Of a stretch of 64,000 nt of DNA, positions 31,474-62,565 are shown piece by piece. The position numbers and the translations under genes were made by a program. This stretch comes from Acorus gramineus (taxonomy: Eukaryota; Streptophyta; Magnoliopsida; Acorales; Acoraceae), in the NCBI GenBank assembly GCA_030737835.1, contig JAUJYN010000044.1, positions 372,001-436,000 of the forward strand. The letters run 5' to 3'. A model generated the notes under the pieces. The model ran no database searches. It saw only the letters and a list, made by a program, of their open reading frames with translations, and was not told the DNA's origin. Every line of letters starts with the position of its first letter. Within the stretch, counting starts at the first letter, position 1.

Positions 31474-34412
31474 TGGTTATTGGTTATTTGAGTGGGTGAG
31501 CCTAACCCTAACCTCACCCCCCCTTAAGGTCACCCCTAGGCACTATTTGGGCATGAAAATGACATTTTTGCCCTCTCTCTCTCTCTCTCTCTCTCTCTCC
31601 CCCTCTCCCATTTCGCGGAACTCTCTCAAGCTCCCTCTCTTGGTCTTTTTTTTTCCTCTCTTTGTGTGTGGAGGAGGAGGAAGAATCCATTGAAGGTGAA
31701 GGTGAAGGTGAAGAAGGAAGCAAGAGGTGAGTTTTGTGTATGTGTTGTTGTGGTTGTGGTTTCTCCTCTCTCAAGCTCCCTCTCATGTCTCCCCCCCCCC
31801 TGTTTTTCAGCCAAAGAAGGTAGTGGTGGTGGTGGTTGAGGTGGTCGTGGGTGTGTCGATAACCCCGCATCTCCCCATTTCCCTCCCCCTGTTTCGGTAA
31901 GGCAGCTCACTGTCTTTTAAAGATTTCAGTGAATCTAGTATTTAGAGGCATATTTTTAGGATTATTTCTGATTATGATTTGATCATCTATGTGTCGAGAT
32001 GTTATATATGAAATTTGGGGTCATTATGATATCTGTGTTGTATGTTAGAACCTGTTTTGTATGGTCTGTCTAGATTCTCGTAGGAATTGACCTGTTTCTA
32101 GAAATTATTTGTTTCGGGCTTGTAGAGGCAAAATTAGGTTCTAATGTCTTCATGGATTATGATCCCAGCATATCAGAGAATGTGCATGATTTATTTCATA
32201 AATTTTGGAAGTGTATTGGGTGCTGTGGAGACCAATTAGTAGGGTTTGTTGCAGCAGGTTTGGCAAAGTTTGGCAGTTTTGCTTTGTTGAGTGTCAAGGA
32301 GTTGTTTGCATGTGTCTTGGGTGATAATATGGAAGTATCAGGGGTTAGGGCCTTCATGAAGTAGGCTTATATGTGTGATAGGAGGTTCCATATTTTAATT
32401 GTGGATCATTGGTTGTGTTTTGCAGATCTCATAGACCGGACGCGCGACGATCCGGGTATCTGTGAGTGGTTTGATCGCGCATTGATGGGGAATCTTAGCT
32501 ATACTACTTGTATAGATAAGTAGTATGGCCATGCTTAAGCTATAATATGTTAGATATCTTGCATGCTAGGCTTATATGCATGTATTGTATCCATGTATGA
32601 ATGATTGTATTGCATGCGCCCCTCTAGTATGGGCATGTATTTTGTAAATGTGTATGGATGTATAGAATATGGCATGTCTTAGGTAGTATTGTAATACTAC
32701 TCCCACCATATTAATTGGAATATCCAGCATGATTAAGTCTGGGTTAATAACGGGCACCTGCCTAATATTCCCTTGCGATAAGACTCGAGGGCGCGGTGTA
32801 GTTGTTGCGCCCATGCTAATGGGGCAAAGCTATGACTAGCTTCATGAGATGATGATCTCTCTCGCCCTCTCCCTCTGAACGAACTGAGTAAGTAGATGCG
32901 ATTTCCTACTCGACTAAGGTTCATTTGGAATATTGGCATGCACCTGTTAGTGCGCGAGATCGCGCTTGCCCCTTTCTTTTAAGTTGGCGATATCCAACGC
33001 ATGCTTAAGTTAGGCCTTGTGTGCTTATGTGATTAATGACCATGTATGCATGTTGTATGATTTATTATGATGTAAATCCATGTTAGGGAATGCCCCTATA
33101 ATTATTAGATGATTGTGCATATGGTTCATGCACATAGCTGGATATATTTATATGCGCATATTAAAAACTGATAGGCCTATCTGAAATAGGCGTGGGTATG
33201 ACCCGCTGTCGGGTTGTACCTTATTAGTTAGAGCGCTAGCGATGTAATCGCCCCGTGCATCCGAGCGATGCACTCGTTTGGAATTCAGGAGAATTCATTA
33301 TCTTATCGGTTTTGTTAAGCCGGTAGTGGGGCATTAAGGTAGGCCTACCCGTGCTAGGCGTGTATATGAACCGCTTGTTGGGTTATGTGCCTTGGGATTA
33401 TTTCTGCGTGAGAGCAGAGGCAACCCCCTTGTGTCCGAGCAACGCAACCGTGTGGGAGTACAATAGTGTTCGCTATCTCGATATGTGATTACCGAGAGTA
33501 GTTGTTTTCCATTGGGTTCGCTTTGCGAACATGGAATGTTTACTCCCAATGTCGTCCGTGTTGAAGAGGCCCGGGTTGTAGCTGTCCTGACAGAGGGCTC
33601 CCATCCGTAGGTACCACCGATGCGTTCGGGAGCGTACTGATCGTGGGAGTGTACCAGGTAGATGCTACCCGGGAGAGGGTTAACGAATGATATTGCGAGC
33701 GTGGAATCGTTCTCCCCTTCATTGGATCCGATGTAGGAACTTCCCGGCGTTGGAAAAGCTGTCCTGACAGAGGGCTCCCATCTGTAGGTACCACCGAGGC
33801 GTTTGGAAGCGTACTGATCGTGGGAATATACCAGGTAGTGACTACCCGGGGAAAGGGCTACCAGTGGACCAAGGGTGTAGAGCAGTCTAAGTCTCTTCCA
33901 AAAGTCCCAAGAGTCTCCCTCCGGGAGTGAGGGTGAGGATGAGGTGAAGACACATCGCCGCGTGACCCATTCGTGGTTCGTCCGTTCCCATAGTTGTTGG
34001 GTCCGGTTGCGTATCGATGTTCAAGGACATCGTTGGGCAGTTATCTCGATGTAGATGATCCAGTAGTGTTGTGTAGACCAGTAATTCTGGGTCTCGTTGA
34101 CCAACGGTATGGTCTCTCCCCAAGAGACCCAAGAGTCTCCCTCCGGGAGTGAGGGTGAGGGTGAGGTTGGTGATCTAATAATGTTGTGTGGACCAGTAAT
34201 CCTGGGTCTCCTCGACCAACGGTATGGTCTCTCCCCAAAAGTCCCAAGAGTCTTCCTCCGGGAGTGAGGGTGAGGATGGTCGCGCCGTCGCGTGGCTTTG
34301 TTATCCATTGGGTTTTTACCCATGTTTTTCTTGAAAGGAAATTGCTTTGGTATTGAACTGTTGTATGGTGATTGGTTTCCAGCCACTCACTGAGCTTGTA
34401 GCTCACCCCTCG
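31474..34412 (+). repeat. Ty3/gypsy LTR, subfamily A copy 2, right part
   Basis: Continuation of the host LTR after the nested solo LTR. It contains a leader intron at 31897-32425 and repeated blocks near 33560-34360 with CTCCCTCCGGGAGTGAGG. At 34412, after CACCCCTCGCA, it switches abruptly to subfamily B LTR sequence. Confidence 0.85.
31897..32425 (+). other. predicted LTR leader intron, copy A2
   Basis: Boundaries TTTCG|GTAAGGCAGC and GTTTTGCAG|ATCTCATAG (529 bp), nearly identical to 26480-26998. Confidence 0.7.
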
Positions 34413-36836
34413 CATCCGGCAGGCGCACCAGATTGCCGGGCGCGCGAGCGCGGGCGTGCGCTCGGGGGGTGCAGGGGGAGGTGTGCTGGGTAGGAGGTGC
34501 TCGGGCATCAGGCGGGCAGTGCCCGGGCGTGTAGGCGAGCGGTGCTCGGGCCACTCGGCGATGCGCGCAGGCAAGCAGCGCGGGCAGCAGCGCGGGTAGG
34601 CTGGCAGGCGCGCTAGGCGCGTGCTGCCAGGCGCGCTGGGCGCGTGTTGTGCGGGCGTGCGCGTGGGCGCTGGGTGAGGGTCCCGGGTGCTGGGCGCTGG
34701 GCGCTGGGTCGCGGATGCTGGGCGTGCTGGGCATGCTGGCTGTGTTGGGCGCTGGGCTCTGGGGCGCTGGGCGATGAGCATGGTGCAGGAGCATGCACGC
34801 GGGGCGCTGGGCGGAGGCGCAGGCGTGCGCGCGGTGGGGTGAGCAGTGGGTGCGAGCGGGCGGTGTGCGCGTGCGGGGCGCTACGCTGGGGCGCAGTGCG
34901 CACGGGTGCACCCGGGGCTAGGCGAGCTGCTGGTCGAGTGGGTGGTGCGCGCGGGGTGAGCGCGGAGCGAGGCAAGGGCAGCGGAGGTGCGCGCGGGGTG
35001 CGTGCGGGGCGAGGCGCTGGGCGCGCGGGGCATGCGGTGTGCGCGCGGGTTGCTGCGCTGGGGCGCAGTGGACGCGCGGTGCACCCGGGGAGCTTGGCGA
35101 CGTGTCCAGGCGGAGGGCGGGTTGAGGCGCGGCGGTGCATCTGGGGGCGGGTGACCGTGCGGGTGGTTGCCGAGGGTGCGGGAGTGAGTCGGAGTGCTCG
35201 GGCTAACGTGCGTACGGGCCGTATGTACGTTTGCCCGACTGTTGGGTACTTTTAGAATGTTTTGTGTATTTTGTAGTGTTTCTGGATTTTACTCACCGTA
35301 TTAAATACCTGTCTTGCAGATCTTGACGGACGGTCGCGCGACGACCTAGATACCGGTGAGTGGGACGATCCAACCCAGTAGGGAGGCGTTACATGCACTT
35401 GGGCGTGTACCGTCCTCCCCTGGGGCACCATAGTAAATATTAACCTGTTTAATATGAAAACTATGTAAGCATGATAATCTGTAGTATGCATGTCACCCTA
35501 GATTTGTATGCTAGGGACTTATACCCTTAGGACCTGTATAAGAACCATGCACCCTGTTATCATGTTTCCATGCTAGGAAAGCCCCGACCGATGCATGTTC
35601 CCATTTAGTTTAATTTGTTTAAATAAAATGCGAGCATGTGATTATTAGCCTGTCTTAGTGAATATTATAGGGGAGGGGCCTCGCGAGGACAGCGGTGAGA
35701 CCCGGGCTAGGGTACTCCGTGTTCCTTGTTTGGTTGTCGGGATGTCCTATATCGGGACCTCACGCTGCCCTCCCAAGGATTCTTTCCCCGTTAATATTCC
35801 AACCTCTTTATTATTATAATGCATGTTTCCCCGCATCCTGGTTATGCGCCTTGTTGGAATTCTGAAGAATTCAAGGCATTAGAGTTGTAGAGATGTGTGA
35901 TCAGGGGATCCGAGTGGATCATATGCGTATGGATAGGCTGTTCTGTTTCCCTTCGTTGGATCCGTGTAGAGACTGCCCCAGCGTTGGAAAGGCCGTCCCT
36001 TCCGAGGGCTCCCATCAGTAGGCGCCTCCGATATTTGTGACGGACTGTGCTGAAGTTGTGGGTGAAGGCTAAGCGGCCTACGGAGTGGAGGAGAGACTAT
36101 CGGTGGACCAAGGGTGACCAACAGCCTAGTCAGTCCCAATATCCTATGTCACCCATAGAAGGGTGAGGGTGAGGGTGCGGTGGGTCAGCAATGGGGTGAC
36201 CCACTGGTTGTGGAATTGTGGTCTAAGGATGATTATTAGATTAGTATGTCCCAATATCCTATGTCACCCATTGAGGGTGAGGGTGAGGGTGTGGTGGTTC
36301 GGCGATGTGATGAACCACTGGATTTATGATGTTATGCCACTTTGAGGTTGGTTGTTAATTAATTGTGGTTAATATAGCTGTGATGCATGGGTTGTGCTGT
36401 TCACTGAGCGTGTGGCTCACCCCTCGCACAATTGTTTTCTCCAGTTGCCACTGAGCCGGATCAGCAGGAGGAGCCTTCAGAGGGATTCCTTCAGTAGCGG
36501 AGCAGCGCTACGTCCCGCGAGTGTTAGAGGCTATCAGCATCCCTTTTTGGCAGTATGTATTTTATTTCCGTGCTTGAGCACGCGTTTGTATATATACTCA
36601 GTTGTATTTGTGTATATTGGCTCTCACAGGACAGATGATTGTGTATCGAGTCTGTAGTATGTTTTATTTACAGATTCAGTCTTTCGCTTCCACATTTGGT
36701 GTATATATCATGTCAGCCTCTTTGTTGTCTGTGTGTCATTCTAGTTGCTTGTTTATGGTATATTATTGACCTCCTGTGTAGATTCTGATATTATATATAG
36801 ACTTGCCGCGCCACGGGGACGCCCTGGGGCGTGACA
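34413..36836 (+). repeat. 5' LTR (5'-truncated, chimeric) of plus-strand gypsy element B
   Basis: Matches 40677-43075 of the 3' LTR and ends GGGGCGTGACA directly before a primer-binding site. Its first roughly 960 bp are missing and replaced by subfamily A sequence. A GC-rich alternating tract spans 34413-35200. The leader-intron acceptor CTTGCAG|ATCTTGACGG is at 35319/35320. Confidence 0.88.
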
Positions 36837-39717: not shown

Positions 39718-42700
39718 TGTTATATGTGTCACTTTTAACCTTCTGGTAACCGTTGGGACATTCTGGCAGTTTTTTTGGTTTTTTTCGTTTTTCGATCGGA
39801 ACCGCTAAAATTTCGGGCTGTTAGCTATCGCCCTGAGATAGAGGGCTCCGATTGAAAATCTAACTGCATATTATGTGTCCTGGTGCCATTTTAGGCCTCT
39901 CACGAAAATTTCGTCGAATTCCGGTAACGTTCTGAATTTCGCAGTTTCGGGGCGTATCCGGGTTTTGACCGAGCGAGAAGTCATTGGGAGAGTTGACTTG
40001 GTCAAGTGGGCCCATGACTTGGTCAACCCTTTTTGTCTTTTAGTTTGGTTGGGTTGACCCAAGTCAAATCTCATCTAATCCTCACTTAAGCCTAATTAAT
40101 CTTGATTAGCCCTAATCCAAGTGAGGTTGACTTTATTTAAGTGAGATCTAAAAGGTTGCCCACTATTCATCATCTTCTCTTTTGATTTCTCTCTCCCCCT
40201 CTCTCTTTTTCAAGTTTTGAGCCACCTAGAGGGCTTAAACTTAAAACCTATAACATAGAAAGGCTAGATCGGGTCCCGATCTACGCCCCGGTGTTCTCGG
40301 ATTCGAATTCCGAGAAGTTTGGCCCCTTCATCCCCCCTCTTTTCTCCCCTGATTTGGGCCATTTCGAGGGCCAAGGGAGATCCCGGCGTTGGAGGCCTTT
40401 GGGGAGAGGTTTCGGTGCGCGGAGATCAACCGAGCATCCTTGCTTTCCCTTGGTAAGCCCTTTTTCCTCTCTTTCCTTGCATAGATGCTTGTTAGGATGA
40501 TGGTTTTGGGGTTGGGAGGCGGTCGGTGGCTGTGGGTGGCCGTCGGAGGGCTGTGGGTGGTGGTCGGAGGCCGTTGGTGGCCGGTGAGAGGAGTTTGGGT
40601 GGTCGGGCAGGGTGTTAGGTAGTCCCGGGCAGGGAGGTTGGCTGTCCCGGGTGGGCTGGCAGCGGGCGCAGCAGGCAGGCGCACCAGATTGCCGGGCGCG
40701 CGAGCGCGGGCGTGCGCTCGGGGGGTGCAGGGGGAGGCGTGCTGGGTAGGAGGTGCTCGGGCATCAGGCGGGCAGTGCCCGGGAGTGTAGGCGAGCGGTG
40801 CTCGGGCCACTCGACGATGCGCGCAGGCAAGCAGCGCGGGCAGGCTGGCAGGCGCGCTGGGCGCGTGCTACCAGGCGCGCTGGGTGCATGTTGCCGGGCG
40901 TGCGCGTGGGCGCTGGGTGAGGGTCCCGGGTGCTGGGCGCTGGGTCACGGATGCTGGGCGTGCTGGGCGTGCTGGGTGTGCTGGGCGCTGGGCGCTGGGG
41001 CACTGGGCGCTGAGCACCGTCCAGGAGCATGCGCGCAGGGCGCTGGGCGGAGGCACAGGCGTGCGCGCGGTGGGGTGAGCAATGAATGCGAGCGGGCGAG
41101 GTGCGCGTGCGGGGCGCTGCGCTGGGGCGCAGTGCGCACGGGTGCACCCGGGGCTAGGCGAGCTGCTGGTCGAGTGGGTGGTGCGCGCGGGGTGCGCGCG
41201 GAGCGAGGCAAGGGCAGCGGAGGTGCGCGCGGGGTGCGCGTGGGGCGAGGCGCTGGGCGCACAGGCATGCGGTGTGCGCGCGGGTTGCTGCGCTGGGGCG
41301 CAGTGGACGCGCGGTGCACCCGGGGAGCTCGGCGGCGTGTCCAGGCGGTGGGCAAGGGCCCGGCGGTGCGCCTGGGTGCTCGGGTTGAGGCGCGGCGGTG
41401 CATCCAGGGGCGGGTGACCGTGCGGGTGGTTGCCGAGGGTGCGGGAGTGAGTCGGGGTGCTCGGGCTAACGTGCGTACAGGCCGTATGTACGTTTGCCCG
41501 AGTGTTGGGTACTTTTAGAATGTTTTGTGTATTTTTGAGGTATTTGTGGATTTTACTCACCGTATTAAATACCTGTCTTGCAGATCTTGACGGACGGTCG
41601 CGCGATGACCCAGATACCGGTGAGTGGGACGATCCAACCCAGTAGGGAGGCGTTACATGCACTTGGGCATGTACCGTCCTCCCCTGGGGCACCATAGTAA
41701 ATATTAACCTGTTTAATATGAAAACTATGTAAGCATGATAATCTGTAGTATGCATGTCACCCTAGATTTGTATGCTAGGGACTTATACCCTTAGGACCCG
41801 TATAAGAACCATGCACCCTGTTATCATGTTTCCATGCTAGGAAAGCCCCGACCGATGCATGTTCCCATTTAGTTTAATTTGTGTAAATAAAATGCGAGCA
41901 TGTGATTATTATAGGGGAGGGGCCTCGCGAGGACAGCGGTGAGACCCGGGCTAGGGTGCTCCGTGTTCCTTGTTTGGTTGTCGGGATGTCCTATATCGGG
42001 ACCTCACGCTGCCCTCCCAAGGATTCTTTCCCCGTTAATATTCCAACCTCTTTATTATTATAATGCATGTTTCCCCGCATCCTGGTTATGGGCCCTGTTG
42101 GAATTCTGAAGAATTCAAGGCATTAGAGTTGTAGAGATGTGTGGTCGGCGAATCCGAGTGGATCATATGCGTATGGATAGGCTGTTCTGTTTCCCTTCGT
42201 TGGATCCGTGTAGAGACTGCCCCAGCGTTGGAAAGGCCGTCCCTTCCGAGGGCTCCCATCAGTAGGCGCCTCCTGATATTTGTGACGGACTGTGCTGAAG
42301 TTGTGGGTGAAGGCCAAGCGGCCTACGGAGTGGAGGAGAGACTATCGGTGGACCAAGGGTGACCAACAGCCTAGTCAGTCCCAACATCCTATGTCACCCA
42401 TGGAAGGGTGAGGGTGAGGGTGCGGTGGGTCAGCAATTGGGTGACCCACTGGTTGTGGAATTGTGGTCTAAGGATGATTATTAGACTAGTATGTCCCAAC
42501 ATCCTATGTCACCCATTGAGGGTGAGGGTGAGGGTGTGGTGGTTCGGCGATGTATGAACCACTGGATTTATGATGTTATGCCACTTTGAGGCTGGTTGTT
42601 AAATTAATTGTGGTTAATATAGCTGTGATGTGGTTGTGCTATTCACTGAGCGTGTGGCTCACCCCTCGCATATGTTTTCTCCAGTTGCCACTGAGCCGGA

Positions 42701-43075: not shown

Positions 43076-45057
43076 ATGTTGACCCTTGACTTGGTCAATT
43101 GGGTTTGTTTTCTAGTGTTGTTGGGTTGATTAAGGTCAAAGCTCACTTAAACCTAACTAAACCTAGCTAAACCTAATTAGTTCTAAGTGTAAGTGGTGAG
43201 TGTGTGAGTGTGTGTGGTGTGTGTGTGTGCCTTAATGAAGTCCACGCCCAAGAATAGTGTCCCTATTCATCATCTTCTCTCTCAAACTCTCTCAAAAGCT
43301 CTCATCTCCTCTCTTTATTTCCCCTTTATGATCTAGCTAAGGTGGTTAAAACGAAAAACCCTAGAAGGAGAAAAGGAAGGTGAGGACCCGATCTATCCTT
43401 CCATGGTTTCATTTTCGATTTCCCCCTTGTGAAACCTCCTCTCTTACCTCATATTCTCCTCTGTTTTCATCCCCTCTTTGGCTGAGAAGAGGGCTTGGTA
43501 GAGGTGGTCTTGGTGGTGGCAAATCGGTGCGCGAAGGGCACCCATTTTCACCCCTTTGTCTTTCCTCCTTCGGGTAAGCTTTCTTCCTTCCTTTTTCTTG
43601 TGTACATGCTTGTTTAGGGTTGCTTATGGGTATGCATGGCATGCATGGTGGTTAGGGGGTTGGGGGGGGGGGGCTGTTGGGGGCTGTTGGGGGTGTGGGA
43701 GTGGCTCGGGCGCGCGTGCGGGGTCATCTGTGAGCGTGCGCGCGAGCCTGCGCGCGTAGGTAAGCGCAGGCAGGCGCAGGCACGCAGTCGGGCGCGCTGG
43801 CGGGCGTGCGCGCGGGCTGTACGCGCGGGCGTGCGAGCGGCTGCTGCGTAGGGGAGCAGCAGTGGGTGCGGGGGGTACTGCGCTGGGGCGCAGTGCGTGC
43901 GGGTGTGAGTGTGAGGTGCTGCGCTGGGGCGCAGTGCACGCGGGTGCACCCGGGGCTGGACGCGCGGTGCGCGCGGGCACGCGCTAGCGTGAGCGCGAGC
44001 GTGCGGCACGCCTGGGCGCGAGGGCAGGGGCGCGGCAGTGCGCCCGGGGTGCGGGGCTGCGTGCGTGCGTGCGCACCCGTGCGTGCGCGTGCGGGTGGCC
44101 GTGCGCATGGCTGCCCGGGGGTGCGGGAGTGTGTCGGGGCACTCGGACTCGCGTGCGTACGGGCCCGTATGCATGCTTGTCCGAGTGTTGGGTATTTTTA
44201 GCGTATTTCTTGCGTATTTGTGTATTTTACTCACCATTTTGGTTTCCCATGTCTTGCAGATCTCGACGGGCGATCACGCGACGACCCGGGTATTGGTGAG
44301 TGGGACAATCCAACCCAGTAGGGAGGTGTTCGATGCACGTAGGAGTGCATTGCCCTCCCCTGGGGCACCATAATTGCATATTAGATAATATTAGTTGTAA
44401 ACTATGCCTGCATGATTATTATGTAGTATCCATGCCACCCTAGGCCTTGCATGTTAGGGATATGCACCCTTATGATATGTGTAAAGGCCCAAGCATCCTG
44501 ATACCATGTTTTCATGCTAGGGAAGCCTCGACCTACGCATGCGTCCCATTTAGTTTAATTTATTTAAATCAAATGTGAGTTTTGTAATTAGCATGGCTTA
44601 GAGAATATTATAACCTTGTGGTTATAATATATGCTTCCCCGCATCTTAGTTATGTGCCCTGGAGGAATTCTGAAGAATTCATGACATTTGTAGAGTTGAG
44701 ATCGGTGTCGGCGGATCCAAGTGGATCGTATCCGTGTGGGTAGGTTGTTTCTCTTCCCTTCGTTGGATCCGTGTAGGGACTCCTCAGCGTTAGACAGGCC
44801 GTCCTGACAAAGGGCTCCCATCAGTAGGCACCTCCTAATTTGGTTTCGGACTGTGCTGAATTGTGGGAGTAGACCAGGCGAGCTACGGTGTGGAGGAGAG
44901 GCTATCAGTGGATCAAGGGTGATTAACAGCCTAGTCAGTCCCAAAAGACCATGTCACCAGTTTGAGGGTGAGGGTGAGGGTGTAGTGGGTTGGCGATGAG
45001 CGACCCACTGGATTGTGTAGTTATTGCCACTTAGAGGCTATAAATGATTTGAGGTTA
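43076..45057 (+). repeat. Ty3/gypsy LTR fragment, subfamily D
   Basis: Begins mid-LTR at TTGACCCTTGACTTGGTC, homologous (inverted) to 53085-53130, and continues to 45057, where an inverted insert breaks it. It resumes at 46109. Its first part is missing, probably because element B inserted at 43076 and the left flank was later lost. It is the closest relative of the inner element's LTRs but contains the intron they lack. Confidence 0.85.
43574..44259 (+). other. predicted LTR leader intron, subfamily D (precursor state)
   Basis: Boundaries CCTTCGG|GTAAGCTTTC and ATGTCTTGCAG|ATCTCGACGG (686 bp). In the related LTRs at 51469-53433 and 58360-60317 this exact segment is absent, with TTTGG joined to ATCT. 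Confidence 0.8.
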
Positions 45058-45871
45058 TTTTGCCTCTACAAGCCCGAAACAAGTCATTTCCAGAAGCAGG
45101 TCAATTCCTACGCGAATCTGGACAGGCCATGCAAAACTGGTTCTAACTTACACCACATATATCATAATGACTCCAAATTTCATATATAACAACTAGACAC
45201 ATAGATGATCATATCATATGAAGACATAATCCTAGAAATGTGCCTCTAAATACTAGATTCACTGAGTTCTTTAAAACCAGAGTGCTGCCTTACCAAAACA
45301 AGGGGAGGGAAATGGGGAGATGCGGGGTTTTCGACACACCCACGACCACCTCAACCACCACCACTACCACCACCTCATCAGCATCTCCTCAAGCCCTTCA
45401 TGGCAGAAAACAGGGGTGCAAAGGGGCATGAGAAGGGGAGAGAGAGAGGGCAAAAAGGTCATTTTCATGCCCAAATAGTGTCTAGGGGTGACCATAAGGG
45501 GGTGGTGAGGTTAGGGTTAGGTTCACCCTCACTCAACCACACATTTTTGCTTTATTGGGAAGCGTGCGGAGAAGCACCACACACTCGAAAATATCTCACC
45601 CACCGAAACCCAGTAACGGCCAAACCCGGATGCGATTCGGAACTGCATATTTTTCAAAACGTTACCGGAATTCGATGAAATTTTTATGGGTAGTACTAAA
45701 CAGTACCAGGACCCATAATATGCAGTTAGATTTCCAATCAGAGTACTCCAACTCCCGTAGGTAGCTAAAAGCCAAAATTTTAGCGACTCCGATCGAAAAA
45801 GAAAAAGGCCTTGAATGACCCAGATGTAACCAAGGCTTAACCGAAATGGCTCCAAATGACATAGGCATAAC
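45058..45871 (-). repeat. inverted fragment of subfamily A LTR
   Basis: Inverse complement of roughly 25718-26720. It ends (LTR start) at TAGGCATAACA, 45871, and is truncated inside the leader intron at GCCTCTACAAGCCCG. The intron donor context remains (CCTTACC on +, 45286-45292). Confidence 0.85.
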
Positions 45872-45884
45872 ACTACGACTGCTA

Positions 45885-46105
45885 CTTTGATTGGCTCCGT
45901 TCAGCCACACTCGGATCAGCTTGACCAGATTAGTTAGTGCCTCAATCACCTAATTCTACAGCAGTCTCTTTCTGGTTCTTCTACTCCCTTTGCCTTGTCT
46001 TCTACAACGGGTACTCTTGCTTATTGGATTTTTGATTCGGGTGCCTCACATCATATGACGCCAGATAGTTCTATCCTCACTTGTAACGCCCCCGTACCCA
46101 TTATC
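45885..46105 (+). pseudogene. copia gag-protease fragment
   Basis: Plus-strand translation gives GSSTPFALSSTTGT, then AYWIFDSGASHHMTPDSS, clearly homologous to the gag/protease junction of the copia element at 7.7-13.0 kb but diverged from it. It is sandwiched between an inverted LTR start (45871) and the 3' part of another LTR (46109 on). No flanking duplication or copia LTR is visible, so it arrived as a fragment. Confidence 0.82.
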
Positions 46106-46108
46106 CGA

Positions 46109-49530: not shown

Positions 49531-51468
49531 TGTCACGCCCCAGGGCGGCCGTCCCCGATACGTGGCAAATATATATAATATCAGCAGTCCATACAGGAGA
49601 TCAATAAAAGACTCTAAACAACATCGAAAATGACAACACAATCAATAATGTAGCTGACATAATATATATACATATAGCGGAAGCTTAAACGACTGAGTCT
49701 GTAATTCAAAGACATATTACAGACCCGAATACATAATCAACTGTCCTGTGAGAGCCAATATAAACAAAGACATCCATATACAAGTGCTGTGCCCAAGCAC
49801 GGATAACAATACATACAAGCAAAGAAGGGGATGCTGATGGCCTCTCACTCGCAGAACCCAAAACGTGAACGCTGCTCCGCTACTGATGTGATGCCTCGGG
49901 GAGCTCCTCCTTCAGATCCGACTCAGTAACAACTGGAGGAAAAGAATATGCGAGGGGTGAGCCACACGCTCAGTGAATGGCACAATCTATGCAACACAAC
50001 TCATATTAACCTTATAATAATTAAAGTCCCTAAACGGGAGGAACTGTACAAGCTAGTGGGTCGTAACATCGCCGACCCACCCCACCCTCACCCTCACCCT
50101 TTAGGGGTGACATGGGCCTTTTGGGACAGACTAGACTGCTCTCCACCCTTGGTCCAGTAGCCTCTCCCTCGCGTAGCCTCTACCTGGTATACTCCCACGA
50201 TCAGTACCCTCCGAACGCATCGGTGGTACCTACAGATGGGAGCCCTCTGTCAGGACAGCTTTCCCAACGCCGGGGAGTCCCTACTCGGATCCAACGAAGG
50301 GGAGAAAACAGCCTACTCACACGGATACGATCCTCTTGGATCCGTCGACAACGATTTCTAACACTACTAATGTCATGAATTCTCAAGAATTCCTCCAGGG
50401 CGCATAACTGAGATGCGGGGAAACATATATTATAATAACAAGGTTATAATATTTTCTAAGGCATGCTCATACCAACATAATCTCATTTTGATTTAATTAA
50501 ATTAAACTAAATGGGAAACATGCATAGATCAAGGCTTCTAGACATGTATGGGCCTCTATACATGATACATGGATGTATATCCCTAGCATACAATGTCTAA
50601 TATGGCATGGTTACATCATAGTAAAACATGCATTAACATAGTTTTTCATTGACACAAGTTAATATGCAATTATGGTGCCCCAGGGGAGGGCAATGCACGT
50701 TTACGTGCATCGAACGCCTCCCTACTGGGTTGGATTGACCCACTCACCGCAACCCGGATCGTTGCGTGACCGTTCGCCAAGATCTGCAAGACATGGGCAT
50801 TCAATATGGTGAGTAAACTACACAAATATACATGAAATTTACTAGAAATACCAAATACTCGGACAAACATGCATACGGACTCGCACGCATGCGAGTACCA
50901 CGGACGCACGCAAGTCCGGGTGCCCTGACACCTACCCGGACCCTCGGACAGCCACATGCATGGCCCCCCGCACGCGCACGCACGCATACGCACACACGCA
51001 CGCGCCCCAGCACCTTTGGCGCACTGCCGTGCGCCTGCCCGCGCGCCCAGACGCGCTGCCGCGCGCGCGCGCACGCTCGCGCGTGCCTGCGCGCACCGCG
51101 CGTCCAGCCCGCGCGCCCTCGCGCGCACTTCGCGCACGTGCAGAACCCCACGCACACTCGTGCGCACTCCCCGGGTGCACCCCTGCTCGCGCCCGCGCGC
51201 GTCTGCGCGCCCTCCTGCGAGAGCGCCTGCGCGCGCTCGCGCGCAGACAGCCCCCCAGCGCGCGCCCACTCTTCCCTAACCCCTTTTTAACCCTCCCCAA
51301 CCCCTCACACACATTCTAACACATCTACCCAACGTGCATGACCTCCCCAACCATCCCTAAGCCATAAAAACCAAGAAAAGAAGGGGAAAAGCTATCCTTG
51401 GGAGGGGAAATGAAAGGGGGAGGTTCGGGGGCCCTCGACGCACCCGCGACCACCTCAACCACCACCAC
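49531..51468 (-). repeat. 5' LTR of the outer gypsy element, 3' part
   Basis: Starts TGTCACGCCCCAGGGCGG (LTR 3' end in inverse orientation). It carries the mini-exon and leader-intron acceptor near 50784 and a GC-rich alternating tract at 50940-51270, and is interrupted at 51468 by the inner element. The predicted donor near 51393 reads GATAGC where other copies read GTAAGT or GTAAGC, so splicing may be lost in this copy. Confidence 0.85.
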
Positions 51469-53433
51469 TGTCACGCCCCAGGGTGGTCGTCCCCGAGACG
51501 CGGCAATGGTATATATGATATCAGCAGTCTATACAAGAGGTCAATAACATACTCTAAACAACATAAAAAATGACAACACAGACAACAATGAGGCTGACAT
51601 AATATATACACAAATAACGGAAGCTAAAAGACTGAGTCTGTAATTCAAAAGACATATTACAGACCCGATACATAATCAACTGTCCTGTGAGAGCCAATAT
51701 ATACAACGACATCCAAATATAATACAAACGTGTGCCCAAGCACGGAATACAATACATACAATCAAAGGGGGATGCTGATGGCCTCTCACACGCAGAACGT
51801 GACGCTGCTCCGCTATAGCTGATGTGCCTCGGGGAGCTCCTCCTTCAGATCCGACTCAGATATAACTGGAGAAAAATATATGCGAGGGGTGAGCCACACG
51901 CTCAGTGAATAGCACAACCCATGCATCACAATTCATATTAACCTCAGTTAAATTATAGCCTCTAAGTGGCAGTAACTACACAAACCAGTGGGTCGCTACA
52001 TCTCCAACCCACCACACCCTCACCCTCACCCTCAAAGGGGTGACATGGTCTTTTGGGACTAACTAGGCTGTTAATCACCCTTGGTCCACCGATAGTCTCT
52101 CCTCCACTCCGTAGCTCGCCTGGTCTACTCCCACGATCAGCACAGTCCGACGCATCGGAGGTACCTACAGATGGGAGCCCTCTGTCAGGACAGCCTGTCT
52201 AAGGCTGAGGAGTGTCTACACGGATCCAACGAAGGGAAGAGAAACAGCCTACCCACACGGATACGATCCACTTGGATCCGCCGACACCGATTGCAACTCT
52301 ACTAATGTCATGAATTCTTCAGAATTCCTCCAGGGCGCATAACTAAGATGCGGGGAGACACATATTATAACAACGAGGTTATAATATTCTCTAAGGCATG
52401 CTAATAACCATATGCTCGCATTTGATTTAAATAAGTTAAACTAAATGGGAAACATGCGTAGGTCGAGGCTTTCCTAGAATGAAAACAAGGTATTAGGATG
52501 CGTAGGTCTCTATACATAATATAAGGGTGCATATCCCTAGCATACAAAGTCTAAGGGGGGGGGGCATCGATACAACATAATGATCATGCATTGCATAGTT
52601 TACATTTAATACTAGTTAATATGCAACTATGGTGCCCCAGGGGAGGGCAATGCACGCCTACGTGCATCGAACGCCTCCCAACTGGGTTGGATTGTCCCAC
52701 TCACCAATACCCGGGTCGTCGCGTGATCGCCCGTCGAGATCCAAAGAGAGGAAGGGAAGGGGAGGAATTCGGGTGCTCTTCGCGCACCAAATCGCCACCA
52801 CCAAGACCACCACCACCAAACCCTCTTCTCAGCCCAAGCATGGCAAGCTTTTCTCCTTCTAGGGTTTTTCTTTTCTTCCACTCCTACTAGATCAAAAAGT
52901 GGAAATAAAGAGAGGAGATGAGAGAGCTTGAGAGAGATGGAGAAGAAGATGAATAGGGAGGGGACACTATAGGGGGACGCCCACTTAAAGGGCCACACAC
53001 ACACCTCACACACACACACTCACTTACACTTAGAAAAAATAAATTAGGTTTAGGTGAACTTTGACCCTAGTCAACCCAACCACACTAACAAACAAAACCA
53101 ATTGACCAAGTCAAGGGTCAAACTTGACTTGGTCAAAGTCATCTTTGACTTGGTCAAGTCTCCCAATGACTTCTCGCTTGGTCAAAACCCGGATACGATT
53201 CAGAACTGTGAAATTCTGAACGTTACCGGAATTCGATGAAATTTTTGTGAGTGGCTTGAAATGGCACCAGGACACATAATATGCAGTTAGATTTTCAATC
53301 GGAGTTCTCAAACTCATGATGATGGCTAAAAGTCCAAAATTTTAGCGGTTCCGATCGAAAAAAGAAAAAGTTGAAAAACTGCCAGAATGCTCCAATGGTG
53401 ACCAGAAGGCTAAAAGTGACACATATATAACAT
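51469..53433 (-). repeat. 3' LTR of the inner gypsy element (intron-less)
   Basis: 1965 bp, starting TGTCACGCCCCAGGG and ending TATATAACA on +. The exon-exon type junction TTTGG/ATCTCGACGG falls at 52741/52740 on the minus strand. Confidence 0.92.
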
Positions 53434-53446
53434 TCTTCCCCCCTTA
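53434..53446 (-). promoter_or_regulatory. polypurine tract of the inner gypsy element
   Basis: The minus strand reads AAGGGGGGAAGAA immediately before the 3' LTR, the expected plus-strand primer for reverse transcription. Confidence 0.85.
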
Positions 53447-53480
53447 GGAAATTTTATCCTCAAAATAAATACAAAAACAT

Positions 53481-56362
53481 CTAGGAAGGGAAAAGATGCG
53501 GATATGCGTCACGCATGGCATCCTCGAGCTCCCAAGTGGCCTCGGCACCGGAACGGTGCTGCCATCGCACCTTGACCAACTGGACGGTCTTGGTGCGGAG
53601 CCTCTTCTCGCGTCGGTCCAAGATCTCGATCGGCTGCTCCACGAATGACAAGTCCGGCTCGAAGATGAGCGGCTCGAACGGAATGACGTGAGCAGGATCG
53701 TGGACGTAACGCCTCAGCTGCGAGACATGGAAGACGTCATGGGCCTGAGCCAGCTGTGGGGGCAGAGCTATGCGATAGGCCACCTCTCCAACTCGCTCGA
53801 GGATGAGGAACGGCCCAATGAAACGCGGACTCAGCTTGCCCCGCACGCCGAAACGGAAGATGCCCTTCATCGGGGACACCTTCAGGAAGACATGGTCACC
53901 AACCTCGAAGGCGAGCTCACGGCGACGACGATCGGCGTAGCTCTTCTGACGGCTCTGAGCGACTCGGATACGCTCGCGAATCGTCTTGACCATCTCTGAG
54001 GTCTGGTGGATGATCTCTGGTCCCTCCAACTGGCGTTCTCCGACCTCGTCCCAACACAAGGGGGACCTGCAGCTGCGGCCATAGAGCGCCTCGTATGGAG
54101 CCATCCGGATACTCAAGTGGTAGCTATTGTTGTAGGCAAACTCCACCAACGGGAGATGCCTCTCCCAACTGCCCCCAAAGTCAAGAACGCAAGCTCGTAG
54201 CATGTCCTCCAGGGTCTGAATCATCCTCTTCGACTGGCCGTCCGTCTGCGGATGAAACGCTGTACTGAAGTGGAGGTTCGTACCAAGGGCGTGCTGGAGG
54301 CTACGCCAGAACCTCGAAGTAAATCGTGCGTCTCGATCAGAAATGATGCTGACGGGAGTGCCATGGAGACGAACAATCTCAGACAAACAACTGCGCCAGG
54401 GTGTCCAGAGAATCGGTGAGTCGGATGGGGAGGAAATGAGCGGACTTCGTCAGTCGGTCGACGATTACCCAGATGGCATCGCGACCCGAACGTGACCTCG
54501 GCAAACCCGAAACGAAGTCCATGGTGATCTGCTCCCACTTCCACTGAGGAATCTCAATGGACTGCAGCTTCCCCGCAGGACGCTGATGCTCCGACTTCAC
54601 CTGCTGGCATACCAAGCAACGGGCAACGAAACGGGCAATATCCGTCTTCATCCCGCGCCACCAGTAGCCACGACGAAGGCCCCTGTACATCTTCGTGCCA
54701 CCAGGATGCACTGTGTACCTCGAACGATGGGCCTCGTCCAAGATCTTCTGCTTCAGCTCTGCGTCGTCAGGAATGCATACTCGACCTCTGAACCGCAGGA
54801 TCCCGTCCTCGCGAATCTGGTAGTCCGGACGCTCGCCCCGGGCGACGCCTTCAGAGGGACTAGAAAGTGAGGATCCTGCCCCTGAGCCGTGCGGATCTCG
54901 TCGAGAAGAACGGGCTGCACCACTAGCCTGGCCAAAAAGCCATCGCAGGAGTCTCTCGAACGCTGATCCAGCAAGCGGCCTCCTCCAGAAGCCTCCAACG
55001 ACGTACAGCCATGTGGGCGGCCATGCCCAAGGGCTGCCTGCTGAGAGCATCCGCCACGACATTCGCCTTACCCGGATGGTAAGCGATGTCACAATCATAG
55101 TCCTTCAGGAACTCGACCCAACGTCTCTGACGCATGTTGAGCTCCGGCTGGGACTGCAAATATGTCAAGCTCTTATGATCAGTAAAGAGCTCGAACTCCT
55201 CGCCATAGAGGTAGTGCCTCCACATCTTCAGCGCAAAGATGATCGCTGCTAACTCTAAGTCGTGGGTGGGGTAATTCTGCTCATGGGGCTTCAACTGACG
55301 CGACGCGTAAGCCACAACCTTACCGTGCTGCATCAGGACGCAACCCACACCCAACCGCGATGCATCGGAGTAAACTGCGAACCCACCACTCCCAGACGGA
55401 AGGGTAAGAACTGGCGCTGAGGTGAGCCTTCGCTTCAACTCCAGGAAGCTCTCCTCGCAAGCTGGGGACCACTCGAACCGGACATCCTTCCGAGTGAGGC
55501 GGGTAAGAGGAACAGCTATCTTCGAGAAACCCTCGACAAACCTCCTGTAATAACCCGCCAAGCCCAGGAAGCTCCGAATCTTGGTGGGGTTCGACGGTCG
55601 ACGCCAATTCGACACGGCGAGCGTCTTGTCCGGGTCCACAGATATGCCCTCGCCGGAAATCACGTGGCCCAAAAAGGCCATACGCTCCAACCAAAACTCG
55701 CACTTACTGAACTTGGTGAACAACTGATGTCGGGCCAAAGTCTCCAAGACAGTGCGGAGATGGTGAGCGTGCTCCTCAAGACTCCTAGAGTACACCAAGA
55801 TATCATCGATGAAGACTACTATGAAGGAGTCGAGGAAGGGCCGAAACACCCGGTTCATCAGATCCATGAAGGCTGCCGGCGCATTCGTCAACCCAAACGG
55901 CAGTACTCTGAACTCGTAGTGCCCATAACGGGTACGAAAGGCCGTCTTCGGAATGTCTGACTCCCGGATCTTCAGCTGATAGTAGCCCGAACGGAGATCG
56001 ATCTTAGAAAAGACACGCGCTCCCTGGAGCTGGTCAAACAGATCATCAATCCGTGGCAAGGGGTACTTGTTCTTCACGGTCCGCTTGTTCAGCTGCCTGT
56101 AATCAATACAAAGCCGCAGCGAACCGTCCTTCCGCACAAACAGAACAGGGGCTCCCCACGGAGAAACACTCGGACGTGCGAAGCCCTTCTCCAGCAACTC
56201 CTCCAACTGCTCCTTGAGCACCTTCAGCTCTGCTGGGGCCATCCGGTATGGAGCTCTCAAAATCGGCTCGGTCCCCGGAATCAGATTTATCTCAAACTCG
56301 ATCGCGCGATCCGGCGGTAACCCCGGAAGATCATCAGGGAAAACCTCAGGATACTCTGCCAC
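53481..56362 (-). pseudogene. RT, RNase H, integrase and chromodomain-like region of the inner gypsy element
   Basis: 56362-54923 is a long open frame with reverse transcriptase ([26 protein letters not shown]) and RNase H ([23 protein letters not shown]). 55098-54379 contains the integrase zinc-binding H/C residues (CLVCQQVKSEH) and the first catalytic Asp (ITMDFVSGLP). After a frame break near 54385, 54386-53481 has the second Asp and third catalytic residue region ([18 protein letters not shown]) and a C-terminal tail ([24 protein letters not shown]) like a chromodomain. Frame breaks near 54950-55090 and 54385 disable it. The domain order is diagnostic of Ty3/gypsy; the tail indicates a chromovirus. 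Confidence 0.9.
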
Positions 56363-56485
56363 GACCGAGTCTGACTGATATCTGCCCGCAGCGGTGCGTC
56401 CTCCTCAGCAATATACGCCAAAAGCCCTCGCATCCTCCCTGAAGGAGTCTCCACGCCTGTATGGACGACACGAACCCCAAAGGGG

Positions 56486-58240
56486 CTACGTCACGATCGC
56501 CCACGAACTGGAAGGACCTCCGACCCGAAGGTGGAAAGACACCGACTTGGCAAAACAGTCGATGCTGGCGTGACTAGCTGAAAGCCAATCCATTCCCAGG
56601 ATGGCATCGAAGTCCGTCATAGCGAGCTCTACCAACTCCACTGGAAACTCATGCTCCGCAATCACCACCGTACACCCTCGGTACACAGAACGGAGGAGAA
56701 TACGGTCTCCGACGGGCAATGATATCTCCAGGATAACATCAAGAGGGGCGGACGCCACACCCATTCGTCTCGCAAAAGCGGGAGACACGAATGAGTGCGT
56801 GGCTCCGGAATCAAATAACACATATGCAGGGAGCTGGGAGATCTGAACAATACCTCGGACCACGCTACCCAAAGCCTGCGCCTCCTCGGCCGAAAGTGCT
56901 GCAACTCGGCCCTGAACAAACTGCGGTTGAGGAGCAGGGGCACGCCTCGCAGGCTGCACTGGCTGCCTCCTCTGGTCAACACGGCCACCCTGTGGCTGCT
57001 GCTGCTGACGCTGAGGCTGCTGCTGCTGCTGGCGCTGAGGCTGCTGCTGCTGCTGCAGGAGGAAGCACGCGGGGTCGGCCAGAATCAGGACAATTATATA
57101 AAATATGCCCGATGCGCTGACAATGGTAACAGCGCTGCGTCTCCGGTCGCCTGGACTGGACTGGTACTGCTGCAATGGGTGCTGGACCTCGCACTGGCAC
57201 CACATCGACTGGAGTAGCGGCAGCCGCTGTCTGATCAAAGCGGGGCCGCTTCTTCTTGCGCTGTCCCTGGTCCTGGCTCCTGGGAGGTCTCTGGTCTGCG
57301 ACGAGGTTGGAACCCCCACGGAGGCCCCGAGGTCTCGCTCGACTGTCTTCGCCCGAGACACCAAGTCCGAGTACCTCGTGAACGCCTGAGAAGAGACATG
57401 CACCCGAATGGTGCTAATGAGACCCATCTCGAAGCGACGGCACCGCGTCTCCTCATCCATCACCAAGGCTGGGGCGAACCTGGAAAGCCTCGTGAAGCGT
57501 GTGGAGTAGTCCGCGACTGACATGGAGCCCTGCGTCAGCTGCTCAAACTCCCGCATCACGATCTGGCGCGTCGAAAATGGGAAGTACTCCTCCAGGAAAT
57601 ACCTCCGGAACCCCGCCCATAAAAGTCTCCACTCCCTCGGGAATGTCCACCGATCGGGTAGCCCACCAGTCGGCGGTGCTACCCTTCAGCATGAAGGTGG
57701 CCAGGGAGACACGCTGGCGATCGGTGCAGTGCATGGTCGAGAAGATCTTGTCCACCTCCATCAACCATCGCTCAGGGGCAAGGGGGTCCGCCGTCTGTCC
57801 ATGGAACTCGGGAGGGTGGAGCTTCAGAAAGGCAGTGAGGCCACTCTGATGCACTCGCGCTGCAGCCTCCAGCTCCACCTCCCTCTCCAGGGGATCCTGA
57901 ACTCCCACCACTGGAATCACCACGGGGACAGGGGGTACGTCGGGCACCACAGGTGGTTCTGCCACCAAGGGGACCTGTGGAACTGCCTCGCAGGCCGCCC
58001 TCAGCTCCTGAATCTCTCAAGCCTGCTCAGCTAATGCCCTCGTCTGGGCCTCTAGTGCTCTGGTCTGAGTCTCCACCAGATCTGCTATCCGAGCGTAAGC
58101 ACGCTCCCATGCAAAGGCTCCTGCGCCAGTCCTGGCCCCATAGCCGAGGACTCTCCAGTAGCATCCTCACCTCTGGTAGGTCTGGGAACCTCCAAAGGCC
58201 GAGAGGGACCACGTCCACGCATTCCTCTGCGAGGAGGCAT
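56486..58240 (-). pseudogene. gag-protease of the inner gypsy element, broken
   Basis: ATG at 58240 (MPPRRGMRG). The frame is lost near 58115 where a short deletion removes part of a conserved stretch, meets a TGA near 58018, shifts again near 57600 and once more near 57290, and the zinc knuckle (CYHCQRIGHILYNC) lies in a different frame from its neighbours. The protease part (DSGATHSFVSPAF, then DAILGMDWL) ends at 56486. The gag core is recognisable by FSTMHCTDRQRVSLATF and ADYSTRFTRLSRFAP. Confidence 0.88.
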
Positions 58241-58342
58241 ATCAGCAACCTAAGAAAACCAGACACTAGGATCAGAATACTCATATAGAAATCCTAGGAC
58301 TCATCTCTACGAAAAAAGAACAATTGGCTCTGACAGGACCAG

Positions 58343-58354
58343 GCTCTGATACCA
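58343..58354 (-). promoter_or_regulatory. primer-binding site of the inner gypsy element
   Basis: TGGTATCAGAGC on the minus strand, five bases from the 5' LTR. Confidence 0.92.
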
Positions 58355-58359
58355 ACTTT

Positions 58360-60317
58360 TGTCACGCCCCAGGGCGGCCGTCCCCGAGGCGCGGCAATGG
58401 TATATATGATATCAGCAGTCTATACAGGAGGCTAATAACATACTCTAAACAATATAAAAAACGACAACACAGACAACAATGAGGCTGACATAATATATAC
58501 ACAAATAGCGGAAGCTAAAAGACTGAGTCTATAATTCAAAAGACATATTACAGACCCGATACATAATCAACTGTCCTGTGAGAGCCAATATATACAACGA
58601 CATCCAAATATAATACAAACGTGTGCCCAAGCACGGAATACAATACATACAATCAAAGGGGGATGCTGATGGCCTCTCACACGCAGAACGTGACGCTGCT
58701 CCGCTACTGCTGATGTGCCTCGGGGAGCTCCTCCTTCAGATCCGACTCAGATATAACTGGAGAAAAATATATGCGAGGGGTGAGCCACACGCTCAGTGAA
58801 TAGCACAACCCATGCATCACAATTCATATTAACCTTAGTTAAATTATAGCCTCTAAGTGGCAGTACTACACAATCCAGGGGGTCGCTACATCGCCGACCC
58901 ACCACACCCTCACCCTCACCCTCAAAGGGGTCACATGGTCTTTTGGGACTGACTAGGCTGTTAATCACCCTTGGTCCACCGATAGCCTCTCCTCCACTCC
59001 GTAGCTCGCCTGGTCTACTCCCACGATCAGCACAGTCCGACGCATCGGAGGTACCTACAGATGGGAGCCCTCTGTCAGGACAGCCTGTCTAACGCTGAGG
59101 AGTGCCTACACGGATCCAACGAAGGGAAGAGAAACAGCCTACCCACACGGATACGATCCTCTTGGATCCGCCGACACCGATTGCAACTCTACTAATGTCA
59201 TGAATTCTTCAGAATTCCTCCAGGGCGCATAACTAAGATGCGGGGAGACACATATTATAACAACGAGGTTATAATATTCTCTAAGGCATGCTAATAACCA
59301 TATGCTCCCATTTGCTTTAAATAAATTAAACTAAATGGGAAACATGCGTAGGTCGAGGCTTTCCTAGCATGAAAACATGGTATTAGGATGCGTAGGCCTC
59401 TACACATAATATAAGGGTGCATATCCCTAGCATACAAAGTCTAAGGGGGGCATCGATACAACATAATGATCATGCATAGCACAGTTTACATTTAATACTA
59501 GTTAATATGCAATTATGGTGCCCCAGGGGAGGGCAATGCACGCCTACGTGCATCGAACGCCTCCCTACTGGGTTGGATTGTCCCACTCACCAATACCCGG
59601 GTCGTCGCGTGACCGCCCGTCAAGATCCAAAGAGAGGAAGGGAAGGGGAGGAACTCGGGTGCTCTTCGCGCACCGAATCGCCACCACCAAGACCACCACC
59701 ACCAAGCCCTCTTCTCAGCCGAAGAATGGCAAGCTTTTCTCCTTCTATGGTTTTTCTTTTCCACCACTTCTACTAGGTCAAAAGGGGGAAATAAAGAGAG
59801 GAGATGAGGCTTGAGAGAGATGGAGAAGAAGATGAATAGGGAGGGGACACTATAGGGGGACGCCCACTTAAAGGGCCACACACACACCTCACACACACCC
59901 ACACTCACTTACACTTAGAAAAAAAAAATTAGGTTTAGGTAAACTTTGACCCTAGTCAACCCAACCACACTAACAAACAAAACCAATTGACCAAGTCAAG
60001 GGTCAAACTTGACTTGGTCAAAGTCATCTTTGACTTGGTCAAGTCTCCCAATGACTTCTCGCTTGGTCAAAACCCGGATACGATTCGGAACTGTGAAATT
60101 CTGAACGTTATCAGAATTCGATGAAATTTTCATAAGTGGCTTGAAATGGCACCAGGACACATAATGTGCAGTTAGATTTTCAATTGGAGTTCTCACACTC
60201 ATGATGATGGCTAAAAGTCCAAAATTTTAGCTGTTTCGATCGAAAAAATAAAAAGTTGAAAAACTGCCAGAATGCTCCAATGGTGACCAGAAGGCTAAAA
60301 GTGACACATATATATCA
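58360..60317 (-). repeat. 5' LTR of the inner gypsy element (intron-less)
   Basis: 1958 bp. The same intron-less junction, TTTGG/ATCTTGACGG, is at 59627/59626 on the minus strand. The LTR ends ATATATATCA on +, one base different from the 3' LTR end. Confidence 0.92.
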
Positions 60318-61164: not shown

Positions 61165-62565
61165 ACCAATGATTACGACTCATTCTGGTCGAACTGGGTG
61201 AGACTAGTCTTTTACTCGACTTGTTCAACCGGTTCGACCTCCTTAACCAAAACATACGACTCATTCTGGTCGTATGTATTCGCCCACCTTCGGTCATCCA
61301 TATCCTAAACGTACGACGAATTCGGGTCGAACGATGTGAATTTCAAATGCCTGTGTTTTGAATGTGTTCAACCGGTTTCAGTCGCCCATATCATGCACCT
61401 ACGACTGCTTCAGGTCGAACGGTCAGAATTTCACATGCCTGTGTTTTGAAAGTGTTCGACCGGTTTCAGTCGCCCATATCATAAACATACGACTGATTCG
61501 GGTCGAACGGTCTGAATTTCACATGCCTGTGTTTTGAAAGTGTTCAACCAATTTTCAGTAGCCCATACCATAACCCTACGACTGATTCGGGTCGAACGGT
61601 CTGATTTTTACATGCCTGTGTTTTGAAAGTGTTCGACCGGTTTCAGTCGCCCATATCATAAACATACGACTGATTCGGGTCGAACGGTCTGAATTTCACA
61701 TGCCTGTGTTTTGAAGGTGTTCGACCGGTTTCAGTCGCCCATACCATAACCCTACGACTCATTCGGGTCGAACAGTCTGAATTTCACATGCCTGTGTTTT
61801 GAAAGTGTTCGACCGGTTTCAGTCGCCCATACCATAACCCTACGACTCATTCGGGTCGAACGGTCTGAATTTCACATGCCTGTGTTTTGAAAGTGTTCGA
61901 CCGGTTTCAGTCACCCATACCAAACCTACGACTCATTCGGGTCGAACGGTATGAATTTCACATGCCTGTGTTTTGAAAGTGTTCGACTGGTTTCAGTCAC
62001 CCACATCATAAACATACGACTTATACGGGTCGAACGGTCTGAATTTCACATGCCTGTGTTTTGAAGGTGTTCGACCGGTTTTAGTCGCCCATACCATAAA
62101 CATACGACTTATACAGGTCGAACGGTCTGAATTTCACATGCCTGTGTTTTGAAGTGTTCGACCGGTTTCAGTCGCCCATACCATAATCCTACGACTCATT
62201 CAGGTCGAACGGTCTGAATTTCACATGCCTGTGTTTTGAAGGTGTTCGACCAGTTTCAGTCGCCCATACCATAACCCTACGACTCATTCAGGTCGAACGG
62301 TCTGAATTTCACATGCCTGTGTTTTGAAGGTGTTCGACCGGTTTCAGTCGCCCATATCATAAACATACGACTGATTCGGGTCGAACGGTCTGAATTTCAC
62401 ATGCCTGTGTTTTGAAGGTGTTCGACCGGTTTCAGTCGCCCATACCATAACCCTACGACTCATTCGGGTCGAACGGTCTGAATTTCATATGCCTGTGTTT
62501 TGAATGTGTTCGACCGGTTTCAGTCGCCTGTAGACAAATGGTACGACTGATTCGGGTCGAACGTG
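61165..62565. repeat. tandem array of about 14 units of roughly 88 bp with internal inverted repeats
   Basis: The word ATGCCTGTGTTTTGAA recurs about every 88 bp from 61349 to 62490 (14 times). Each unit contains GATTCGGGTCGAACGG followed about 35 bp later by GTGTTCGACCGGTTTCAG, so GGTCGAAC and GTTCGACC, plus outer CGACT and AGTCG, form an imperfect hairpin. Units in the middle are 90% or more alike by eye; the first (61165-61340) and last are degenerate. No ORF runs through it. Confidence 0.93.

Follow-up and report, generated by a model that had tools for sequence, protein, structure and literature searches.

RESULTS

Element A and its relatives in the window

The DNA analyzed here is a 64-kb window of the Acorus gramineus genome; genome-wide tests were run on the assembly to which it belongs (398.6 Mb, 137 contigs). 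At positions 51469 to 60317, on the minus strand, lies a long terminal repeat (LTR) retrotransposon, here called element A, both of whose LTRs lack a GT..AG segment that their relatives in the window contain. The 5′ LTR (58360 to 60317) and the 3′ LTR (51469 to 53432) are 96.3% identical, neither has the two leader introns described below, and the flanks hold a 5-bp target-site duplication, GTGGT, inside a GTGGTGGT repeat. A primer-binding site, TGGTATCAGAGC, follows the 5′ LTR, and we take tRNA-iMet to be its primer; the polypurine tract aaggggggaagaa stands just before the 3′ LTR. Profile matches above the cut-off place gag, protease, reverse transcriptase, RNase H, and integrase domains (PF03732, PF08284, PF00078, PF17917, and PF17921) in separate open reading frames of element A. 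A chromodomain match (PF00385; E value, 4e-4; 20.7 bits) falls under the Pfam cut-off of 25.1. The LTRs belong to a large Ty3/gypsy family, probably of the chromovirus type. Element A itself sits in exon 1 of another family member, LTR B, which was split by the insertion.

Five LTR copies in the window, all on the plus strand, have the segment, which we call intron 2; each begins with GTAAG, ends with TTGCAG, and is followed by ATCT. These are the first copy of LTR F (26480 to 26998; 519 nucleotides [nt], AT-rich, with an unrelated interior), LTR E (28719 to 29310; 592 nt), the second copy of LTR F (31897 to 32425; 529 nt), the 3′ LTR of element D (40453 to 41583; 1,131 nt), and LTR C (43574 to 44259; 686 nt). 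Three further relatives have all or part of it: the truncated 5′ LTR of element D retains the 3′ part only, its 5′ part being missing (34411 to 35319, plus strand); LTR B has a donor that now reads GATAG (50784 to 51396, minus strand); and an F-like copy has the 5′ part only (45057 to 45293, minus strand). In element A, on the minus strand, TTTGG is instead joined directly to ATCTTGACGG in the 5′ LTR (59626/59627) and to ATCTCGACGG in the 3′ LTR (52740/52741). One base of this junction is ambiguous because exon 1 and the intron both end in G. In a BLAST comparison of the element A LTR with the window, the alignments to four relatives stopped at the acceptor base (35319, 41583, 44259, and 50784). 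The nearest window relative is LTR C, whose exon 2 is 90 to 94% alike, and since LTR C has the segment, its absence from element A looks like a loss. A first-pass annotation of this DNA had reported the five segments and the two direct joins; its seven coordinates proved exact, and the GTAAG, TTGCAG, and ATCT motifs and the TTTGG joins were confirmed to the base. LTR C is also interrupted by a piece of an F-like LTR (45057 to 46107).

Intron 2 resembles a GT-AG spliceosomal intron

Family copies were collected from the genome by exon-2 similarity. Thirty of 40 such places were fetched: one was element A, one (L025, left unclassified) was off the site pattern, and 28 had an intron end. The intron ends in AG in 27 of these 28 copies, the other (L022) having CAA, and a branch-point-like CTMAC motif stands 18 to 40 nt before the acceptor in all 28; in the F introns, which are AT-rich, TTAAT stands at −28 instead. 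On the donor side, 30 of 31 located sites read GTAAG and the remaining one GTAAA, in a table that omits two rows with false donors (L010 and L067) and the intron-bearing rows in which no donor was located. Lengths range from 519 to 1,240 nt. With donor and acceptor consensus, a branch-point-like motif, and exact exon-exon joins present as DNA copies, intron 2 appears to be a GT-AG spliceosomal intron.

The boundaries are more durable than what lies between them. LTRs E and F are 82% alike at the end of exon 1 (last 60 nt), and a stretch of about 420 nt in exon 2 matches at 91% (27048 to 27450 with 29413 to 29830), although exon 2 aligns with large gaps over its initial 300 nt. Their intron interiors show no greater similarity than shuffled sequence and differ in GC content (0.66 in E, 0.38 in F). 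Because the exons are partly alike while the interiors are unrelated, the boundaries have persisted and the content has been replaced. The E and F introns look as if they had been exchanged as a cassette between the same splice sites.

Intron 2 is absent exactly at its splice sites in copies across the genome

The 22-base start of exon 2 follows AG, the arrangement of intron-bearing copies, at 4,404 places, against 0 for a reversed control; these places were counted without individual reading of their sequence. It is preceded by CG, GG, or TG at 49 places (control, 0), and the upstream sequence of all 49 was read. Twenty-seven are exact exon-exon joins, 21 are intron ends in which the acceptor A has changed to C, G, or T, and one (L046) is another kind of deletion. 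Genome-wide, then, 28 deletions end exactly at the exon-2 start, and 27 of them start at the donor, so that, from the acceptor side, the scattered ends that would have told against the first-pass annotation were not seen. The joins occur in several subfamilies that differ at the end of exon 1 (CCCTTG, CCTTGG, TTTGG, TTCGG, or TTTTGG), and in four pairs of an intron-less and an intron-bearing copy (L051/L023, L081/L002, L043/L062, and A5/L070) the 30 bases of exon 1 that were displayed do not differ. Intron-less copies are rare, with 27 exact joins against 4,404 AG-preceded sites. The ratio is rough, because a spliced copy whose exon 1 ends in AG is tallied on the intron-bearing side and a mutated exon-2 start keeps a copy out of the count.

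A count from the donor side was less informative. The exon-1 end TTCCTCCCCTTG plus H was found at 2,270 places (reversed control, 33), and among the matches listed all but three continue with GTAA, one of the three being the exact join L032. With a next base other than G there were 71 places (control, 26), which included nine donor point mutants (ATAAG, CTAAG, and CTAAA), more than 20 family copies with the 12-mer at a site further upstream, and unplaced sequences of other kinds; no recognizable deletion running from the donor into the intron was seen among these 71. This test is flawed, for the final letter H in the TTCCTCCCCTTG query shuts out the usual spliced form, and donor-side counts cannot tally exact joins.

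A mundane explanation would be that these are ordinary DNA deletions that look exact through selection or chance. Deletions do happen in these LTRs, in exon 2 of L047 and L048, in L046, and in intron 1 of L050, but 27 of the 28 that end at exon 2 share their 5′ end with a single base of microhomology, a coincidence with a probability of about 1e-75 under a uniform distribution of 5′ ends across 686 nt. The agreement between paired LTRs and the behavior of the second intron, both described below, also argue against this explanation, which we regard as extremely improbable.

The two LTRs of an element agree

The first-pass annotation had reasoned that a leader intron removed by splicing should disappear from both LTRs of a new insertion together. 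Seven elements have two resolved LTRs (A, L075, L078, L079, L065+L085, L071+L086, and L064+L092, the evidence for L085 being an unbroken alignment across the junction), and in all seven intron 2 is absent from both, as that reasoning predicts and as separate DNA deletions would not lead one to expect. The search for mates took in 7 of the 18 single intron-less LTRs. Target-site duplications were seen for A (GTGGT), L075 (TTATG), and L078 (ACCAT), and L078 is inserted in exon 2 of an intron-bearing LTR. At L079 and L080 (C54, about 729.6 to 744.0 kb), three consecutive LTRs are intron-less, and a polypurine tract precedes both the second and the third; this is possibly an LTR-internal-LTR-internal-LTR array produced by unequal recombination.

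Concordant pairs might also arise if reverse transcriptase switched template at short repeats with no splicing involved, as such an event would presumably also hit both LTRs together. However, only one base is common to the two ends, the ends match GTAAG and CAG in 27 of 28 cases, and two separate introns are affected. Template switching is thus a very unlikely source of the intron-less copies.

A second leader intron is missing together with the first in some copies

Upstream of intron 2 the LTRs contain another GT..AG segment, intron 1, which is about 100 nt long and ends about 100 nt before the intron-2 donor (for example, GTGAGGACC...TTTTCAG). The first-pass annotation had claimed a single intron. 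Intron 1 is also exactly absent from element A, where AAAAGCTTG is joined to CCATGCTTGGGCTGAG; on the minus strand, the joins are AAAAGCTTG|CCATTC in the 5′ LTR (59729/59730) and AAAAGCTTG|CCATGC in the 3′ LTR (52843/52844). This junction was unclear from the window alone and was fixed with four genome copies: L007 and L008 have AAAAGCTTG followed by GTAAGG, and L070 and L026 have CAG|CCAT.CTTGGGCTGAG, which resembles CCATGCTTGGGCTGAG.

Both introns are exactly absent from A, L059, L060, and L064, while L051, L081, L068, and L032 lack only intron 2 and keep intron 1. Among intron-2-bearing copies, intron 1 is kept with its GT and AG in all 21 readable ones. Thirty such rows were printed and nine were left out of the count: L002 (other upstream sequence), C (damaged acceptor), L069 (another exon 1), and six with altered sites (L034, L038, L054, L062, L066, and D3). 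The stretch is kept in all of the nine but L002, and none has an exact join. Loss of intron 1 in 4 of 8 intron-2-less copies against 0 of 21 intron-2-bearing copies gives a Fisher P value of 0.003, or 0.009 when three ambiguous keepers (L041, L061, and L065, in which the stretch is kept) make it 4 of 11, in a comparison that was picked after the data had been seen. L050 was not counted among the eight.

D-type intron-2-less LTRs behave differently. The stretch is kept in 14 of 14, with an altered donor, and AG is missing at the acceptor position in 12 of the 14. Taken with these altered sites, the D-type keepers indicate that loss of intron 1 largely tracks splice-site competence, which a model of DNA deletion does not predict; nor would that model lead one to expect intron 1 to be lost along with intron 2 in four elements and in none of 21 intron-2-bearing copies.

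Intron-less copies arose more than once

An exon-2 tree of 77 sequences, from which 5 of 82 rows with a deleted or truncated exon 2 were dropped (L047, L048, L076, L078a, and L081), requires at least 16 changes of state, of which well-supported branches force 11. Placement of all intron-less copies in one clade is rejected (p-AU, 1.6e-61). The nearest relative is intron-bearing for 15 of 26 intron-less rows and intron-less for 11 of 26.

The tree bears on the reverse polarity, in which the ancestral LTRs lacked the segment and acquired it by later insertion. That the content of the segment changed wholesale between E and F, whose interiors are unrelated, would suit such a history. Against it, AG-preceded copies dominate (4,404 to 27 joins), and intron-less copies are scattered among intron-bearing ones, which would require repeated insertion at one base. 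We give intron gain hardly any credence.

A more serious alternative accepts the spliced origin but holds that most intron-less copies stem from a few spliced lineages that transposed well, not from repeated events. The mutual closeness of L063, L071, L079, and L080, the 11 rows with an intron-less nearest relative, and a clustering of labels beyond that of shuffles all favor it. Conversely, the supported branches force at least 11 changes, 15 rows have an intron-bearing nearest relative, and the intron-bearing copies of the D-type subfamilies, to which that group of four belongs, are sparsely sampled. Predominance of a few lineages strikes us as unlikely, although some intron-less elements may have transposed again.

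The window also holds a tandem array at 61276 to 62563, with a period of about 88 bp and 14 copies in register.

DISCUSSION

Probable splicing of leader RNA before reverse transcription

Absence of the segment exactly at its splice sites recurs in this family, the two LTRs agree in the resolved pairs, and some copies have lost both introns jointly. We consider it very probable that the intron-less copies derive from leader RNA that normally serves as the genome unspliced and that is occasionally reverse transcribed after splicing. The LTRs of the family would carry two GT-AG leader introns, transcription would start upstream of intron 1, and the host spliceosome would excise both introns from part of the transcripts. 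The template that is usually packaged and copied would be unspliced RNA, and hence the introns are inherited. Now and then, a spliced full-length RNA that retains its primer-binding site would be reverse transcribed, and the complementary DNA of its spliced 5′ leader would supply the leader part of both LTRs, leaving one or both introns exactly missing from each. Element A would be a copy of such an RNA, with both introns gone. The proposal of the first-pass annotation, a functional leader intron in a genomic RNA that can be spliced, is therefore strongly supported, albeit from sequence alone, with two amendments: there are two introns, and the word "rarely" is needed, given 27 joins against 4,404 sites.

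Several observations weigh against this account. One of the 28 deletions that end at exon 2 (L046) starts inside the intron. Intron 2 bodies are mostly GC rich (median, 0.68), with less GC-rich ends, which is unusual for plants, whose introns are described as U-rich in PMC3735527. In L050 (C8:17537036), from which intron 2 is exactly absent, an internal deletion rather than a splice has reduced intron 1 to GTAAGATTTCAG, and the stretch is kept in the D-type copies L033 and L078c even though AG stands at their intron-1 acceptor position. For L045, L059, L060, and L063, the search for a mate gave no clear pair. At L045 it met a nested inverted LTR, and the LTR next after L060 (L093) is intron-bearing with only an 82% match; we have taken it as part of a different element, but were it the mate, the pair would be discordant. 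As to the number of events, 27 LTRs are not 27 events, for nine of the LTRs belong to just four elements or arrays (A, L075, L078, and L079+L080). The two states also group more tightly on the tree than shuffled labels do, with 16 changes where the shuffles average 21.8 and 2 of 500 go as low, and L063, L071, L079, and L080 are mutually nearest at 0.95 to 0.98, against at most 0.92 to any intron-bearing copy in a sample in which D-type intron-bearing copies are thin. This clustering makes the number of events uncertain, and some copies may descend from intron-less parents.

Relation to known systems

Regular copying of spliced RNA would soon rid the family of its introns, which are nevertheless present in nearly all counted copies. 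The simplest answer to this persistence is that splicing normally spares the genomic RNA and that spliced RNA serves mainly as messenger. A comparable arrangement exists in complex retroviruses, which have a splice donor in R/U5 and an unspliced RNA genome, the acceptor lying far downstream so that the spliced RNA is subgenomic. The leader donor and the unspliced genome are shared with the present family, in which donor and acceptor instead both lie in the LTR, before the primer-binding site.

Plant LTR retrotransposons are generally intron-less, Ogre and EVADE being exceptions according to PMC12786077, and the introns of Ogre, EVADE, and BARE1 are internal (PMC12786077, PMC3735527, PMC6317226). 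Ogre, also a Ty3/gypsy element, thus differs from the present family in the position of its intron, which is internal and not inside the LTR (PMC12786077, PMC6317226). The spliced Gag RNAs of BARE1 and EVADE offer a functional likeness, in that separate RNA forms serve translation and replication and one of them is made by splicing, but these are copia elements with an internal intron within the coding sequence (PMC3735527, PMC12786077). In maize CRM4TR, a derivative of a centromeric chromovirus, transcripts from the chromovirus LTR and untranslated region are spliced, with one LTR splice in CRM4-derived cDNA (PMC3648361). That transcript comes from tandem repeats, and the accessible part of the same source describes no exactly intron-less genomic copies or LTR pairs. 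Intron-marked reporters in yeast Ty elements likewise lose an intron via an RNA intermediate (PMC12786077); their introns are engineered, whereas those described here are natural, recurrent, and located in the LTR. A search of the open-access literature, with subscription papers mostly outside its reach, found no report of LTR introns with genomic presence and absence, so that novelty is provisional, and a scan of viral contigs found 0.

Implications

Software that finds or compares LTRs could misread such elements, since copy lengths differ by an intron. For the family itself, we tentatively raise the possibility, less probable than not, that splicing of the LTR leader acts as an RNA-sorting switch, in which intron-retaining RNA is packaged by virtue of the intron or its retention (through packaging or export) and spliced RNA becomes messenger RNA. 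If so, thousands of copies would retain the introns because an element that lost them would come near to a replicative dead end, and E and F, with unrelated introns between partly similar exons, would point to a signal that is exchangeable, cassette-like, between splice sites. In an abundant family with two LTR introns, the genomic copies are a natural record of the RNAs that were reverse transcribed, and the ratio of spliced to unspliced copies (here 27 to 4,404) makes the separation of translated from packaged RNA countable from DNA in any plant with such a family.

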